NCBI GenBank assembly: GCA_905480575.1
Contig: CAJQQZ010000026.1
Span: 1-33,689, forward strand
Length of the DNA: 33,689 nt
Direction: 5' to 3'
Origin: an uncultured Alphaproteobacteria bacterium
Lineage (GTDB): Bacteria > Pseudomonadota > Alphaproteobacteria > UBA7985 > CAJQQZ01
Part shown: piece by piece, positions 20,273 through 26,241 of the stretch
Layout: each line of letters opens with the position of its first letter
Position numbering within the stretch: position 1 is the stretch's first letter
Program-made: the position numbers and the translations under genes
Notes under the pieces: generated by a model
Seen by the model: the letters and a program-made list of their open reading frames with translations, nothing else
What the model was told of the DNA's origin: nothing
The model's database searches: none

Positions 20273-20782
20273 TTATGAAACGATGGTTCTGTCGACTTTG
20301 GCCAACAGCCAATGAACAACCGGATAAAAGATCATCGTCATTGCCGCCTTCACCAACAAAGTCATGAAATCCCAAAGTTCCCAAGCGAAGAGCGAATTAA
20401 CAAGCCAATTCACCCCTAAGCCCGCAGTCACGACCAAAATGAATGTTGAGAAAATGTAACCAAATGGCGCGAAGGTAAAAAAGTGTCGCTGAGTAGAAAC
20501 GGTATAAGCCACCAAAACCAATACAATAGCCTGAATGCCCAATGGCCCGCCGACGAGGACATCCTCAATCAAGCCTAAAATAAAGACAGAATAGAGTGGT
20601 AGGAGTTCAGGGCGCGAGATCGACCAGTAATAAACCGATATAATGGTCATTGAGGGCGCCACTTTGACAAAGCCAGGAATGCCAGTAGAAGTCAGAAAAA
20701 CCAACAACAGCAGTAACGAGAGCAGAAATGGTATCAGCCCGCGTGCAATTTGATTAATCCGGCCCCAAAATTCGTAGCCCAA
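20273..20782 (-). CDS. mreD: Rod-shape membrane protein MreD
   Basis: 169 residues with five to six membrane helices, the usual MreD size. The C-terminal half (LGLIEDVLVGGPLGIQAIVLVLVAY and the following helices) has the family's D-x-x-x-G-x-P-L-G pattern. I chose TTG at 20782 (then GYEFWGRINQIARG): AGGA lies 8 nt upstream, and the next helix then starts near residue 15. A longer reading from 20926 would run 48 codons back into mreC and add non-homologous sequence. The gap to the mreC stop is 40 nt. MreD bridges MreC and the PBP2/RodA enzymes. Confidence 0.9.
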   Translation of the reverse strand: MGYEFWGRINQIARGLIPFLLSLLLLLVFLTSTGIPGFVKVAPSMTIISVYYWSISRPELLPLYSVFILGLIEDVLVGGPLGIQAIVLVLVAYTVSTQRHFFTFAPFGYIFSTFILVVTAGLGVNWLVNSLFAWELWDFMTLLVKAAMTMIFYPVVHWLLAKVDRTIVS

Positions 20783-20822
20783 TTCAGTTTTCCTATCGCA
20801 AAACAGCCCACTGCCGTTTTGG

Positions 20823-21698
20823 CTATTGTAAGGTTTCAAACGCGCTGTCTGGCAAAAGATCAGGGTGCTCATAATTAACAACCGTAGCAAATTCCAATCG
20901 ATCCCAATTGATGTTAGAAACAACAATCACCTGATCACCGACAGTTTCTTGCACAATACCAATTTCAAAGCCCGCAGGGAAGACTCCTCCGGCTCCTGAT
21001 GTCACAACTCTGTCACCCAAAGAGATATCTCTAATCTCATCAGGTGTCAGTCGGATGAGACGCACCCCATTTTGATTATCCCCAACGGCAATCGCCGGAA
21101 CGCCGGTTCTTTCCAGAATACAAGGGATACGACTGTTGATATCGGTCACAAGCAACACTCGGGAAGACCCTTGCCCGACATCTAAGATCCGGCCAGCCAA
21201 GCTGTAGGAAGACAGTACTGCCTGACCTTTGCGAACACCGTCCGCACGTCCAGCATTGATGAGAACGCTTTGCACATAAGAGCTACCGCGATCTCGGATA
21301 ACTCGCGCCGAAACAAAATCCGTTCTCAGGTCCTGAGTGACATGCAGCTGGCTCCACAAACGACGGTTCTCTGCTTCCAATCGACGCGCAACTTGTTCCC
21401 ATCTTTCCGTAAAACGCAGTTTATCCCGTAATTCCAAAACCTCCGCCCGCAACGAACCATAGGATCGGACGTTGTTATACAGCTCTCGGCCAGCAGCGAC
21501 CGGCGTTGTCATAGCGGTTAGAACAGGCGAGAATGTATCGACGACGACAACTCGAATGATTTGGGTGGCATTTGGATTAATACGCTCAATAATAAGCAAG
21601 CCGCCAGCCGTCAGTATCATCAGAGTCAACGCAAAACGTTGAAACCATGATTTCAAGGGGGTGGTTACCCGAGCAAATGTACCCGAACGCCGTCTCAT
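20823..21698 (-). CDS. mreC: Rod-shape periplasmic scaffold MreC
   Basis: 291 residues. A basic cytoplasmic tail (1-20), one membrane helix (about 22-41), a coiled coil (about 75-118, LRAEVLELRDKLRF...RRLEAENRRLW) and a two-barrel beta domain (about 120-280) follow in order. Within the latter, SSYVQSVLINAGRADGVRKGQAV and SLGDRVVTSGAGGVFPAGFEIG are strong MreC signatures. MreC links the MreB filament to PBP2. It lies 251 bp after mreB, an unusually long gap that contains two hairpins. Confidence 0.95.
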   Translation of the reverse strand: MRRRSGTFARVTTPLKSWFQRFALTLMILTAGGLLIIERINPNATQIIRVVVVDTFSPVLTAMTTPVAAGRELYNNVRSYGSLRAEVLELRDKLRFTERWEQVARRLEAENRRLWSQLHVTQDLRTDFVSARVIRDRGSSYVQSVLINAGRADGVRKGQAVLSSYSLAGRILDVGQGSSRVLLVTDINSRIPCILERTGVPAIAVGDNQNGVRLIRLTPDEIRDISLGDRVVTSGAGGVFPAGFEIGIVQETVGDQVIVVSNINWDRLEFATVVNYEHPDLLPDSAFETLQ

Positions 21699-21949: not shown

Positions 21950-22990
<1,041 letters not shown>

Positions 22991-23130: not shown

Positions 23131-24702
23131 TCAGGCCGTCATTGCTTCTGGCGCTGTTTTTTCACGTTTAACGATCAATTTGTTCAAGGCGTTGATGTAA
23201 GCGCGAGCTGAAGCCACCAATGTGTCATGGTCGGCCCCCTGCCCGTTAACTGTCTTGCCATCTTCTTCCAACCGAACGGTCACTTCTGCCTGAGCATCAG
23301 TCCCGCCAGTCACGGCATGAACCTGGTACAATTGCATCCGGGCATTCTGTGGAACCATTTCCTTAATCGCTTTGAAGATTGCATCGACAGGGCCGTTTCC
23401 TTCGGATTTACAGCGCTTTTCTTCGCCATCAATCGTGATGGTTAAATCCGCTGTTTGAGGACCTTCTGAACCACAAACAATCTGCACAGACTTGAACTTG
23501 ATGTGATCGTTTTGGCGCAAAGCAGAATCATCAACCAAAGCAATCAAATCTTCGTCGAATACCTCTTTTTTATGGTCGGCCAAGTCCTTGAAACGAACAA
23601 AGGCGTCATCCAACGAATTAGCGCCCAGGTCGTCAAAGCCCAACTCCGCCAACTTATTTTTAAACGCTGCACGACCAGAGTGCTTGCCTAAGACCAAATT
23701 CGATTCAACCAAGCCAACTGAAGCCGGCGTCATGATCTCGTAAGTTTCAGCATTCTTCAACATGCCGTCCTGGTGGATGCCTGATTCGTGGGCAAAAGCA
23801 TTGGCACCGACGATGGCTTTGTTGGGCTGAACAGTGAAACCTGTCACACCCGACAAAGTGCGAGAAGCCTTGGTAATGACGGTGGCATCCAAGTCGGTGT
23901 GGTACGGCATCACATCACCGCGGACTTGCATCGCCATGACGATTTCTTCCAATGAAGCGTTACCGGCGCGCTCGCCGATACCGTTAATCGTGCATTCGAT
24001 CTGGCGTGCACCAGCTTCAACAGCGGCCAGCGAATTGGCAACGGCCAAGCCCAAATCGTTGTGACAATGCACAGAGATCGTTGCTTTATCGATGTTCGGC
24101 ACTTTGTTGAACAACATCTCGATCAAAGCCGCATATTCCTCTGGGACTGCGTAGCCAACCGTATCAGGAATATTGATCGTTGTGGCACCCGCTTTAATCG
24201 CAGACTCTACACAGCGGCAAAGAAATTCGTGCTCTGTTCTGGAGCCATCTTCCGCGGACCATTCAACGTCATCACATAAGTTGCGAGCGTGGGTCACTGA
24301 ATCGACGACCATCTGGTGAACGACGTCTGGTTCCTTCTGCAATTTGAATTTCATATGCAAAGGAGACGTGGACAAAAATGTGTGAATGCGTGAAGATTTC
24401 GCATGCTTGACCGCTTCCCAGGCGCGATCGATGTCCTTCTTTGAGGCACGGGCAAGTCCAGCGATCGTCGCTTTCTGTGCCTGTTTTGCAATTGCTGCAA
24501 CGGCTTCAAAATCACCATTAGAGGCGATAGGGAAGCCTGCTTCGATGATATCGACGTTCAATTCTTCAAGAACAGCAGCGACCTTTAACTTCTCTTCCAA
24601 GTTCATTGAGCAACCTGGTGATTGTTCGCCGTCGCGCAAAGTAGTGTCGAAAATTTTGACCTTTTCGGTGTTCACGGTAACAGTTTGAGATGATGTAGAC
24701 AT
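23131..24702 (-). CDS. leuA: 2-isopropylmalate synthase
   Basis: 523 residues, full length for the LeuA1 type. The TIM-barrel catalytic domain begins with the signature DTTLRDGEQSPG (19-30), which supplies the metal-binding Asp and catalytic Arg; the second signature is VHCHNDLGLAVANSLAAVEAGA with the metal-binding HxH. The C-terminal region (about 395-510) is the leucine-binding regulatory domain. The enzyme condenses acetyl-CoA with 2-oxoisovalerate, the first committed step of leucine synthesis, and is normally feedback-inhibited by leucine. The ATG has AAGG 10 nt upstream. A leucine-rich leader peptide precedes it, indicating attenuation as well. None of the other leu genes is in the window. 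Confidence 0.97.
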   Translation of the reverse strand: MSTSSQTVTVNTEKVKIFDTTLRDGEQSPGCSMNLEEKLKVAAVLEELNVDIIEAGFPIASNGDFEAVAAIAKQAQKATIAGLARASKKDIDRAWEAVKHAKSSRIHTFLSTSPLHMKFKLQKEPDVVHQMVVDSVTHARNLCDDVEWSAEDGSRTEHEFLCRCVESAIKAGATTINIPDTVGYAVPEEYAALIEMLFNKVPNIDKATISVHCHNDLGLAVANSLAAVEAGARQIECTINGIGERAGNASLEEIVMAMQVRGDVMPYHTDLDATVITKASRTLSGVTGFTVQPNKAIVGANAFAHESGIHQDGMLKNAETYEIMTPASVGLVESNLVLGKHSGRAAFKNKLAELGFDDLGANSLDDAFVRFKDLADHKKEVFDEDLIALVDDSALRQNDHIKFKSVQIVCGSEGPQTADLTITIDGEEKRCKSEGNGPVDAIFKAIKEMVPQNARMQLYQVHAVTGGTDAQAEVTVRLEEDGKTVNGQGADHDTLVASARAYINALNKLIVKREKTAPEAMTA

Positions 24703-24712
24703 AGCAGAATAA

Positions 24713-24845
24713 CCTTAGCAAAAAAATTCGTTTGTGAAGTTGGTTGACCTAGTTTTTCCCCTGCTCGCTTGCTGTCGTACAGCTGTAGCGCTCAGGGGTG
24801 GCTAAGGAGTAGTAGGTCGAGGCCGAGGAGGCCTGAGTGCGCAGC
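24713..24845 (-). promoter_or_regulatory. Leucine attenuator: alternative hairpins in the leuA leader RNA
   Basis: Four pairings can be drawn in the RNA. (1:2) the leader-peptide segment 24845-24832 pairs with 24796-24782 through CTCAGG/CCTGAG and flanking GC pairs. (2:3) a strong composite hairpin spans 24798-24758: CCCCTG/CAGGGG, CGCT/AGCG and GCTGT/ACAGC stacked with small internal loops. Both use CCCTG...CGCT, so they exclude each other. (a:a') GACCTA at 24818-24813 complements TAGGTC at 24751-24746. (b:b') CCTTAGC at 24807-24801 complements GCTAAGG at 24719-24713, the leuA ribosome binding site. A run of seven U lies at 24726-24720, but no stem directly abuts it. Pairings are seen in sequence; the mechanism is inferred. 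Confidence 0.7.
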
Positions 24846-24911
24846 AGGAAGGGTTTCAGAAACCGGAGCTCCGAAACCATCGAATTGAATATGCAACTGC
24901 GTCTTTGTCAT
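24792..24911 (-). CDS. leuL: leuA leader peptide (39 codons, Leu-rich)
   Basis: An open reading frame from ATG 24911 to TGA 24792 ends in GLLGLDLLLLSHP: seven Leu codons within nine (positions 28-36; CTC, CTC, CTC, CTA, CTA, CTC, CTT), nine Leu in 39 residues overall. It lies 89 nt upstream of leuA on the same strand, and its Leu run overlaps one arm of mutually exclusive RNA hairpins. This is the classic sensor of an amino-acid attenuator: ribosomes stall on Leu codons when leucyl-tRNA is scarce. No clear SD precedes the ATG, so the transcript may be leaderless or weakly initiated. An in-frame TAG a few codons upstream limits the start choice. Confidence 0.85.
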   Translation of the reverse strand: MTKTQLHIQFDGFGAPVSETLPAAHSGLLGLDLLLLSHP

Positions 24912-25005
24912 AGCGAGAGAAAGTCTAGCCTAATTTTTTGAAATTGATAGTCTTTCTTGTATTTTTTTTTGCGGAGGTTCAACACTAGCCATCAAAGGAC
25001 AAGCA

Positions 25006-26241
25006 ATGATTGATGAAATCCTAGTCGAAATAGCCGATGAGCCCTCTCATCGTTCGCCCGCGGCCTTCGAGCTTCTGCTTGCTAGGCAGGCCCGCGTAAA
25101 ATCGGTGATGAAGGAACAATCAATCCCAGTCATCTGTATTACACACCCAATCAATGTGCAATACGCAACGGGTGCCAGAAACATGACCGTGTTCTCACTC
25201 ATGAACACTTCACGCTATCTCTTGATGTTCGCAGAGGGTCCCACGATCCTCTTTGATTTCTGGGGTTGTTCTCATTTGTCAGAAGGCTTGCCCACCATAG
25301 ACGAGATTCGGGTTGCCACTGGTGTTTCTTACGTTGCTGCGGGATTAGGCCTTGAGTCTCAAGCCGTGAAGTGGGCAGACGAGATCGCCTCCTATATCCT
25401 AGAGCATGTTGGTGAAGGCGCAATTGTTGGCGTTGATCGTTTCCACTTCGCAGCACTAGACGCCTTGAGGGAAAGAGGCTTTAACATCACCGACTCAGAT
25501 CAAGTCATGGCCAAAACACGGTCAATCAAGATGTCGATTGAAATGCCGTACATCAAAGAAGCGATGCTTCGTACAGAAAAAGCTACAGAGGAACTGTGCC
25601 TTTCCTTAGAAGCTGGCGCTTTAGAAGTCGAAGTATGGGCTGAATTCTACCGAGGTCTCATCGCCAGAGAAGGCGAGTACATTTCCACCCGCCTGCTTCA
25701 AAGTGGCCAACGTACTTTCCCTTATTTTCAAGAAGCAGGACCAAAGAGAATCGAAAACGGGGAATTGTTATGTTTCGATACAGACGCCATCGGCTATCAC
25801 GGCTACGCCGTTGATTTTTCGCGCACTTTTCTCTGCGGTACCGACAGGGCCGCTGATCAACAAAAACATCTCTATCGGTTGGCCTATGATCAATTAAACC
25901 ACAACGTTGATCTTTTCCAACCAGGCGCGGAGTTTGAAGAGATTGCCGACAAGGCTTGGCCAATCCCAGAAGAACACCGCCCCTACTCCTATTATTGCCT
26001 GGCCCATGGTCTCGGCATGTCAGGCGAGTACCCTAATATCCCTCACAAGCAACCCGGCGTACCCTACCCTCTCAAAGGCAGGCTAGAGCCCGGTATGATT
26101 GTTTGCGCAGAATCCTATGTCGGGTCAGCAACCAGCCAAGAAGGTGTAAAACTAGAAGATCAACTATTGATCACTGAGAACGGTCCAGAACGCCTATCCC
26201 ATTTCCCATTCGACGACCGGTTGTTGATGAAACACTTATAA
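25006..26241 (+). CDS. M24-family metallohydrolase, DddP-like (DMSP lyase relative)
   Basis: 411 residues: an N-terminal creatinase-type domain (about 20-170) and a C-terminal pita-bread domain (about 180-400). Candidate metal ligands are D258, D260, D270, H334, E369 and E384. The FDTD pattern and all spacings coincide, with a constant offset of 37, with the ligands I recall for the DMSP lyase DddP (D295, D297, D307, H371, E406, E421). Canonical Xaa-Pro peptidases lack that extra Asp. However, the position of the proposed DddP catalytic base D377 is G340 here (HGLGMSGEYP). So it is a DddP-clade protein that may not cleave DMSP; it could act on another small molecule or peptide. The ATG has AAGGA 7 nt upstream. 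It stands alone, divergent from leuA. Confidence 0.8.
   Translation: MIDEILVEIADEPSHRSPAAFELLLARQARVKSVMKEQSIPVICITHPINVQYATGARNMTVFSLMNTSRYLLMFAEGPTILFDFWGCSHLSEGLPTIDEIRVATGVSYVAAGLGLESQAVKWADEIASYILEHVGEGAIVGVDRFHFAALDALRERGFNITDSDQVMAKTRSIKMSIEMPYIKEAMLRTEKATEELCLSLEAGALEVEVWAEFYRGLIAREGEYISTRLLQSGQRTFPYFQEAGPKRIENGELLCFDTDAIGYHGYAVDFSRTFLCGTDRAADQQKHLYRLAYDQLNHNVDLFQPGAEFEEIADKAWPIPEEHRPYSYYCLAHGLGMSGEYPNIPHKQPGVPYPLKGRLEPGMIVCAESYVGSATSQEGVKLEDQLLITENGPERLSHFPFDDRLLMKHL

Follow-up and report, generated by a model that had tools for sequence, protein, structure and literature searches.

The leuA gene of this uncultured alphaproteobacterium is probably controlled by a leucine-sensing translational switch, operated by ribosomes on a short leader reading frame just upstream. 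The analysed stretch of DNA (33,689 nt, referred to here as the window) carries leuA, encoding 2-isopropylmalate synthase, at 23131-24702 on the minus strand (NCBIfam NF002087 and TIGR00973, both above cut-off). The leader lies in the 303-nt gap that separates leuA, with its ATG at 24702, from a divergently oriented M24 peptidase gene. As originally predicted, a 39-codon frame lies exactly at 24792-24911 on the minus strand. It starts with ATG, encodes MTKTQLHIQFDGFGAPVSETLPAAHSGLLGLDLLLLSHP and ends 89 nt before the leuA start codon. The conserved feature is larger than this frame: it also includes a hairpin that contains the leader stop codon and, at the leuA Shine-Dalgarno sequence, a segment complementary to the leader, and reaches 24713. 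Among the surrounding genes, mreB (21953-22990, minus strand) is directly 3' of leuA on the same strand. The top NCBIfam match of the M24 peptidase gene (25006-26238, plus strand) is the DMSP lyase DddP, with a score of 272 bits, far under the 600-bit cut-off.

The 3' codons of the leader are GGC CTC CTC GGC CTC GAC CTA CTA CTC CTT AGC CAC CCC TGA. Codon reading of the frame bears out the predicted seven Leu residues in nine codons near its end: the stretch LLGLDLLLL, from the first CTC to CTT, occupies 24804-24830 on the minus strand and is the presumed stalling site. None of its Leu codons is CTG. A six-frame scan of the window for at least seven Leu in nine codons found one further stretch, at about 20725-20728 on the minus strand within the 20273-20926 ORF. 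Such a run occurred once in 20 first-order Markov copies of the window. When the intergenic region was copied 3000 times in this way, 12 copies contained one.

The leader is conserved in relatives. The congener, the sole other genome of the family, has a 39-codon leader at the same distance to leuA. Its product, MKKTQPHRDFRALRANASDAGSAARLGLLGLDLLLLSHP, is identical to the window leader over the final 13 residues, and the N-terminus has drifted. A scan of the region before leuA, covering 80 named alphaproteobacterial loci and 11 genomes from the same order, yielded Leu-rich frames that end in LLLLSRP, LLLLIRP, LLLLRLTRP, LLRLSRP and similar sequences. Alignment of 61 leaders revealed the signature CTNCNNCTTANNNGCCCCTGA...TCAGGGG. 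The same arrangement is present in 143 distinct alphaproteobacterial loci, where the end of the frame approximates CTN-(CGA/CTN)-CTT-ANN-NNN-CCC-stop. Across these loci, Leu frequencies in the leader frame range from 22% to 100% at most codons between -13 and -4 before the stop, while the other two frames are at about background, apart from individual columns that the conserved motif holds constant. The leader frame is open for at least 16 codons in 99% of the loci. The relatives were checked for loss of the Leu codons or of the frame, on which the original prediction depends. Both are kept, and the Leu enrichment is confined to the leader frame throughout the class. A chance frame without function could explain why the ORF is short, lacks a Shine-Dalgarno sequence and is absent from Rfam. 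The class-wide conservation, the covariation described below and the link to leuA already refute this explanation, and its probability is negligible.

The leader stop codon is located in the 5' arm of a hairpin, P2 (CCCCUG...CAGGGG, 24758-24798, minus strand), identified by RNA folding, covariation and a covariance model that matches the window at 24754-24828 with an E value of 2e-10. The family consensus is a covarying CCCCUGA:UCAGGGG pairing with the stop codon within the 5' arm. Where this arm is CCCTTAG (in sphingomonads) or CCCCTAA, the 3' arm alters to match, and the stop codon alters together with the arm among UGA, UAG and UAA. Standard pairs account for 97.3% of 480 cells. Changes on both sides were observed in 43 cells, compared with 10 expected from shuffles, and five of the eight pairs show such two-sided changes. 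The covariation score of 0.339 (0.188 when shuffled) was not reached in any of 500 shuffles and is lower when the partners are slid. In four loci with degenerate versions of the element, the stop codon lies outside the hairpin arm and the Leu codons and both arms are kept.

A Leu-rich leader followed immediately by a hairpin is the layout of known leu attenuators (PMC6123439). It is conceivable that this one works by classical transcription attenuation, in which the leader and alternative hairpins would govern an intrinsic terminator before leuA, like in E. coli leuL. However, a terminator scan of the window found no terminator-like site, and such sites precede leuA in only 3 of the 143 loci, compared with one or two in shuffles. 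A U-tract is also lacking after P2: at least five T in nine positions were found in only 5 of the 143 loci. Classical attenuation is therefore improbable. The leucine-responsive control of leuA in the original prediction is supported by comparative sequence analysis, with a qualification as to the classical attenuation that it cites. Since neither the window nor its relatives have an intrinsic terminator, the output of the proposed switch is more likely on leuA translation.

A second pairing, P1, joins the last part of the Leu run to the region around the leuA Shine-Dalgarno sequence. In the window it consists of seven base pairs between exact complements, CCUUAGC (24801-24807, minus strand) and GCUAAGG (24713-24719, minus strand). 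The latter holds the leuA Shine-Dalgarno AAGG and is identical in the congener. RNA folding gives P1 a pair probability of 0.75. P1 was compared across species because CU-rich Leu codons always look like an anti-Shine-Dalgarno sequence. The 18 nt preceding P2 were paired with the downstream stretch of the same or of other species, a test that had given a z score of -5 in an earlier version with 62 loci and was rerun with redundancy removal and controls. The mean duplex energy is -13.8 kcal/mol for own pairs and -11.0 kcal/mol across species (z -11 with row and column effects removed). The controls gave z scores of -1.2 for leuA codons, -1.0 for a segment further upstream and -2.2 for the reversed sequence. 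A species' own leader also beats the leaders of its three nearest LeuA relatives by 2.4 kcal/mol (P 5e-8; 0.25 for a control segment). For the window alone the support for P1 is modest, its leader ranking at 22% among cross-species leaders, and it is the comparison across the family that argues for the pairing.

In several loci, the P1 partner is located further upstream, 25-40 nt or more from the start codon and off the Shine-Dalgarno sequence, which counts against a translational switch. This position would suit a Rho-dependent mechanism, in which leader translation and the P1/P2 fold determine whether Rho can reach the stretch that separates the hairpin from leuA and that is C-rich and poorer in G. 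Leader-peptide attenuators that depend on Rho are known, which counts in favour of such a mechanism, and the stretch after the hairpin has a C content of 0.31 and a G content of 0.25, compared with a G content of 0.30 within leuA. However, this composition bias is mild, and the P1 covariation does extend into the Shine-Dalgarno region (z -7.2). Rho-dependent attenuation is thus unlikely, although a better candidate than the classical form, above all for the loci whose P1 partner is upstream of the Shine-Dalgarno sequence.

The element has two features of leader-peptide attenuators of amino-acid biosynthesis genes. Its short ORF just before leuA is rich in codons for leucine, the product of the pathway, and this ORF overlaps the RNA structure, with the stop codon inside P2 and Leu codons inside P1, so that the position of a ribosome would alter the fold. 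From the sequences we infer that the leader is translated, that ribosomes stall in it, in which direction leuA responds, and that the output is translational rather than transcriptional. The transcript would start at the leader ORF or a few nucleotides before it. With ample leucyl-tRNA, ribosomes would pass the Leu codons, terminate at the UGA within P2 and leave. P2 would then re-form and the Leu-codon segment would pair with the leuA Shine-Dalgarno stretch through P1, resulting in poor translation of leuA. When leucyl-tRNA is scarce, a ribosome waiting on the Leu codons would cover the P1 5' strand, leaving the leuA Shine-Dalgarno sequence free and allowing the synthase to be made.

Folding models with a stalled ribosome show a gain in Shine-Dalgarno accessibility of 0.125, compared with 0.061 in chimeras (P 7e-5). 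In the window, the unpaired fraction of AAGG rises from 8% to 37-45% upon a modelled stall. Only this core responds: over the wider 17-nt region from -20 to -3, mean accessibility does not rise with the stall (0.52 vs 0.48). In the model a terminating ribosome likewise frees the leuA Shine-Dalgarno sequence, suggesting that the OFF state depends on re-folding after the ribosome is released.

At codon -4, the last Leu codon of the run, CTT is found in 130 of the 143 loci and CTA in the other 13, with no CTG or CTC, even though the leuA genes of the same genomes use CTG more often than any other Leu codon. In 64 loci codon -5 reads CGA. Enterobacterial leu leaders are known to use slow or rare codons at a sensing position. 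At the RNA level, the CUUA/CUWA sequence ahead of P2 (24802-24807 in the window, the codon -4 region) is nearly invariant, yet few positions of P1 are paired less often than its UA. P1 accounts for neither the role of P2 nor the near-invariant CUUA. Possible reasons for the latter are the speed of decoding, a junction at which the two helices meet, and recognition by some other factor. Such conservation of P2 and CUUA/CUWA beyond what P1 pairing needs could also be expected of a structured RNA whose ligand is a protein or leucine itself, with the ORF being incidental or merely keeping the RNA translated. This explanation is hard to reconcile with a Leu enrichment that tracks the reading frame and runs past P1, or with a frame that stays open for at least 16 codons almost everywhere, and we consider it as improbable as classical attenuation.

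The original prediction also proposed that the leader has a leaderless start. Shine-Dalgarno sequences are rare before the leaders (8 of 123), and the window leader is without one. A -10-like hexamer, TAGACT, is located 10 nt before its ATG (24922-24927, minus strand), a candidate for a near-leaderless start. Counted from the leader ATG, the relatives show a TTG peak at -34 to -36 and a TAnnnT peak at -12. In this position-specific analysis paired promoter-like boxes precede 9 leaders, compared with 3.5 ± 1.9 expected, which is weak support from a subset of relatives. Scoring of E. coli-type promoter consensus sequences upstream of the leader ATGs gave no excess over shuffles. The hexamer and the promoter-like spacing in some relatives are consistent with a leaderless start, although they are not proof of the start site.

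The distribution of the element was examined with a covariance model of the leader end and P2, at a threshold of E <= 0.01. It matches 129 of 385 sampled alphaproteobacterial genomes, and the element is present in 116 of the 194 genomes that have a LeuA orthologue as opposed to 13 of the 191 that lack one; these genome counts are lower bounds because few candidates per genome get scored. Of the 110 loci examined, 106 have a LeuA-like gene next after the element. A sample drawn from across the phylum gave 87 genomes with a match. All except one belong to Alphaproteobacteria, and the single match outside the class is the terminator of a cold-shock gene. Four weak matches are not before leuA and were treated as chance. 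No Rfam family matched this part of the window when E values of up to 5 were allowed, and in 17 related loci the only match at gathering scores was a tRNA.

Some carriers without the orthologue have the element before the other isopropylmalate synthase family (PRK03739/TIGR00970), which is about 30% identical to the window LeuA. The presence of the element before this second, distantly related synthase family suggests that it follows function and not one gene lineage. Six loci with this arrangement were noted. In two loci of another family, the element precedes a cupin gene that is followed by leuA. There the Shine-Dalgarno sequence in P1 belongs to the cupin gene, and the cupin may be a partner that is regulated together with leuA.

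Taken together, the comparisons tip the balance slightly towards a broader proposal. The element would represent an undescribed, class-wide alphaproteobacterial RNA family, in which the sensing codons of a leaderless or near-leaderless leader are themselves the anti-Shine-Dalgarno strand, closed over a stop-codon hairpin. It would have stayed with the isopropylmalate synthase function in two synthase families that are only distantly related, and in a cupin-leuA operon, and translational attenuation would be the standard leucine control of the class. If so, a large class, for which the sources searched contain no leucine-specific control of leuA, has a simple leuA switch that can be tested. Pairing of sensing codons with the ribosome-binding site of their target, so far suggested for actinobacterial leuA, would extend to a second class. 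At least one third of the sampled Alphaproteobacteria would also gain a findable RNA family and, in each genome, a small gene that has escaped annotation. Priority is uncertain: we found no alphaproteobacterial leuA leader in the open literature, and older attenuator surveys (Vitreschak 2004; Lopatovskaya 2010) could contain one.

Several known systems share parts of this arrangement. The leuL leader of E. coli and Salmonella also places adjacent Leu codons in a leader peptide ahead of a leu gene, but it works with an intrinsic terminator and an antiterminator, and the alphaproteobacterial element has neither. In Sinorhizobium meliloti, trpL/rnTrpL is likewise an alphaproteobacterial leader peptide (PMC10117765). 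Its transcript begins at the AUG, a proven leaderless start that is only plausible for the leuA element, and unlike the latter it responds to tryptophan and is a transcription attenuator. The ilvB-II motif of Corynebacterium has a conserved upstream ORF rich in branched-chain residues and covarying stems; in contrast to the leuA element, it ends in a terminator with a U-tract and controls ilvB (PMC10272879). The closest of these systems is the LEU element of actinobacterial leuA, for which pairing of a run of Leu codons with the Shine-Dalgarno box has been proposed (PMC1262725). Both elements have an upstream ORF rich in Leu codons before leuA, in both these codons would pair with the Shine-Dalgarno sequence at the base of the structure, and no terminator was reported for the LEU element, just as the alphaproteobacterial element has no intrinsic one. 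By description they are set apart by their cores: that of the LEU element is a pseudoknot (PMC1262725), whereas that of the alphaproteobacterial element, modelled as a nested hairpin, is a plain hairpin with the stop codon in one arm and the signature CUUA-N4-CCCCUGA. They also differ in distribution, the LEU element being found in Actinobacteria and the element described here, among the genomes sampled, only in Alphaproteobacteria.
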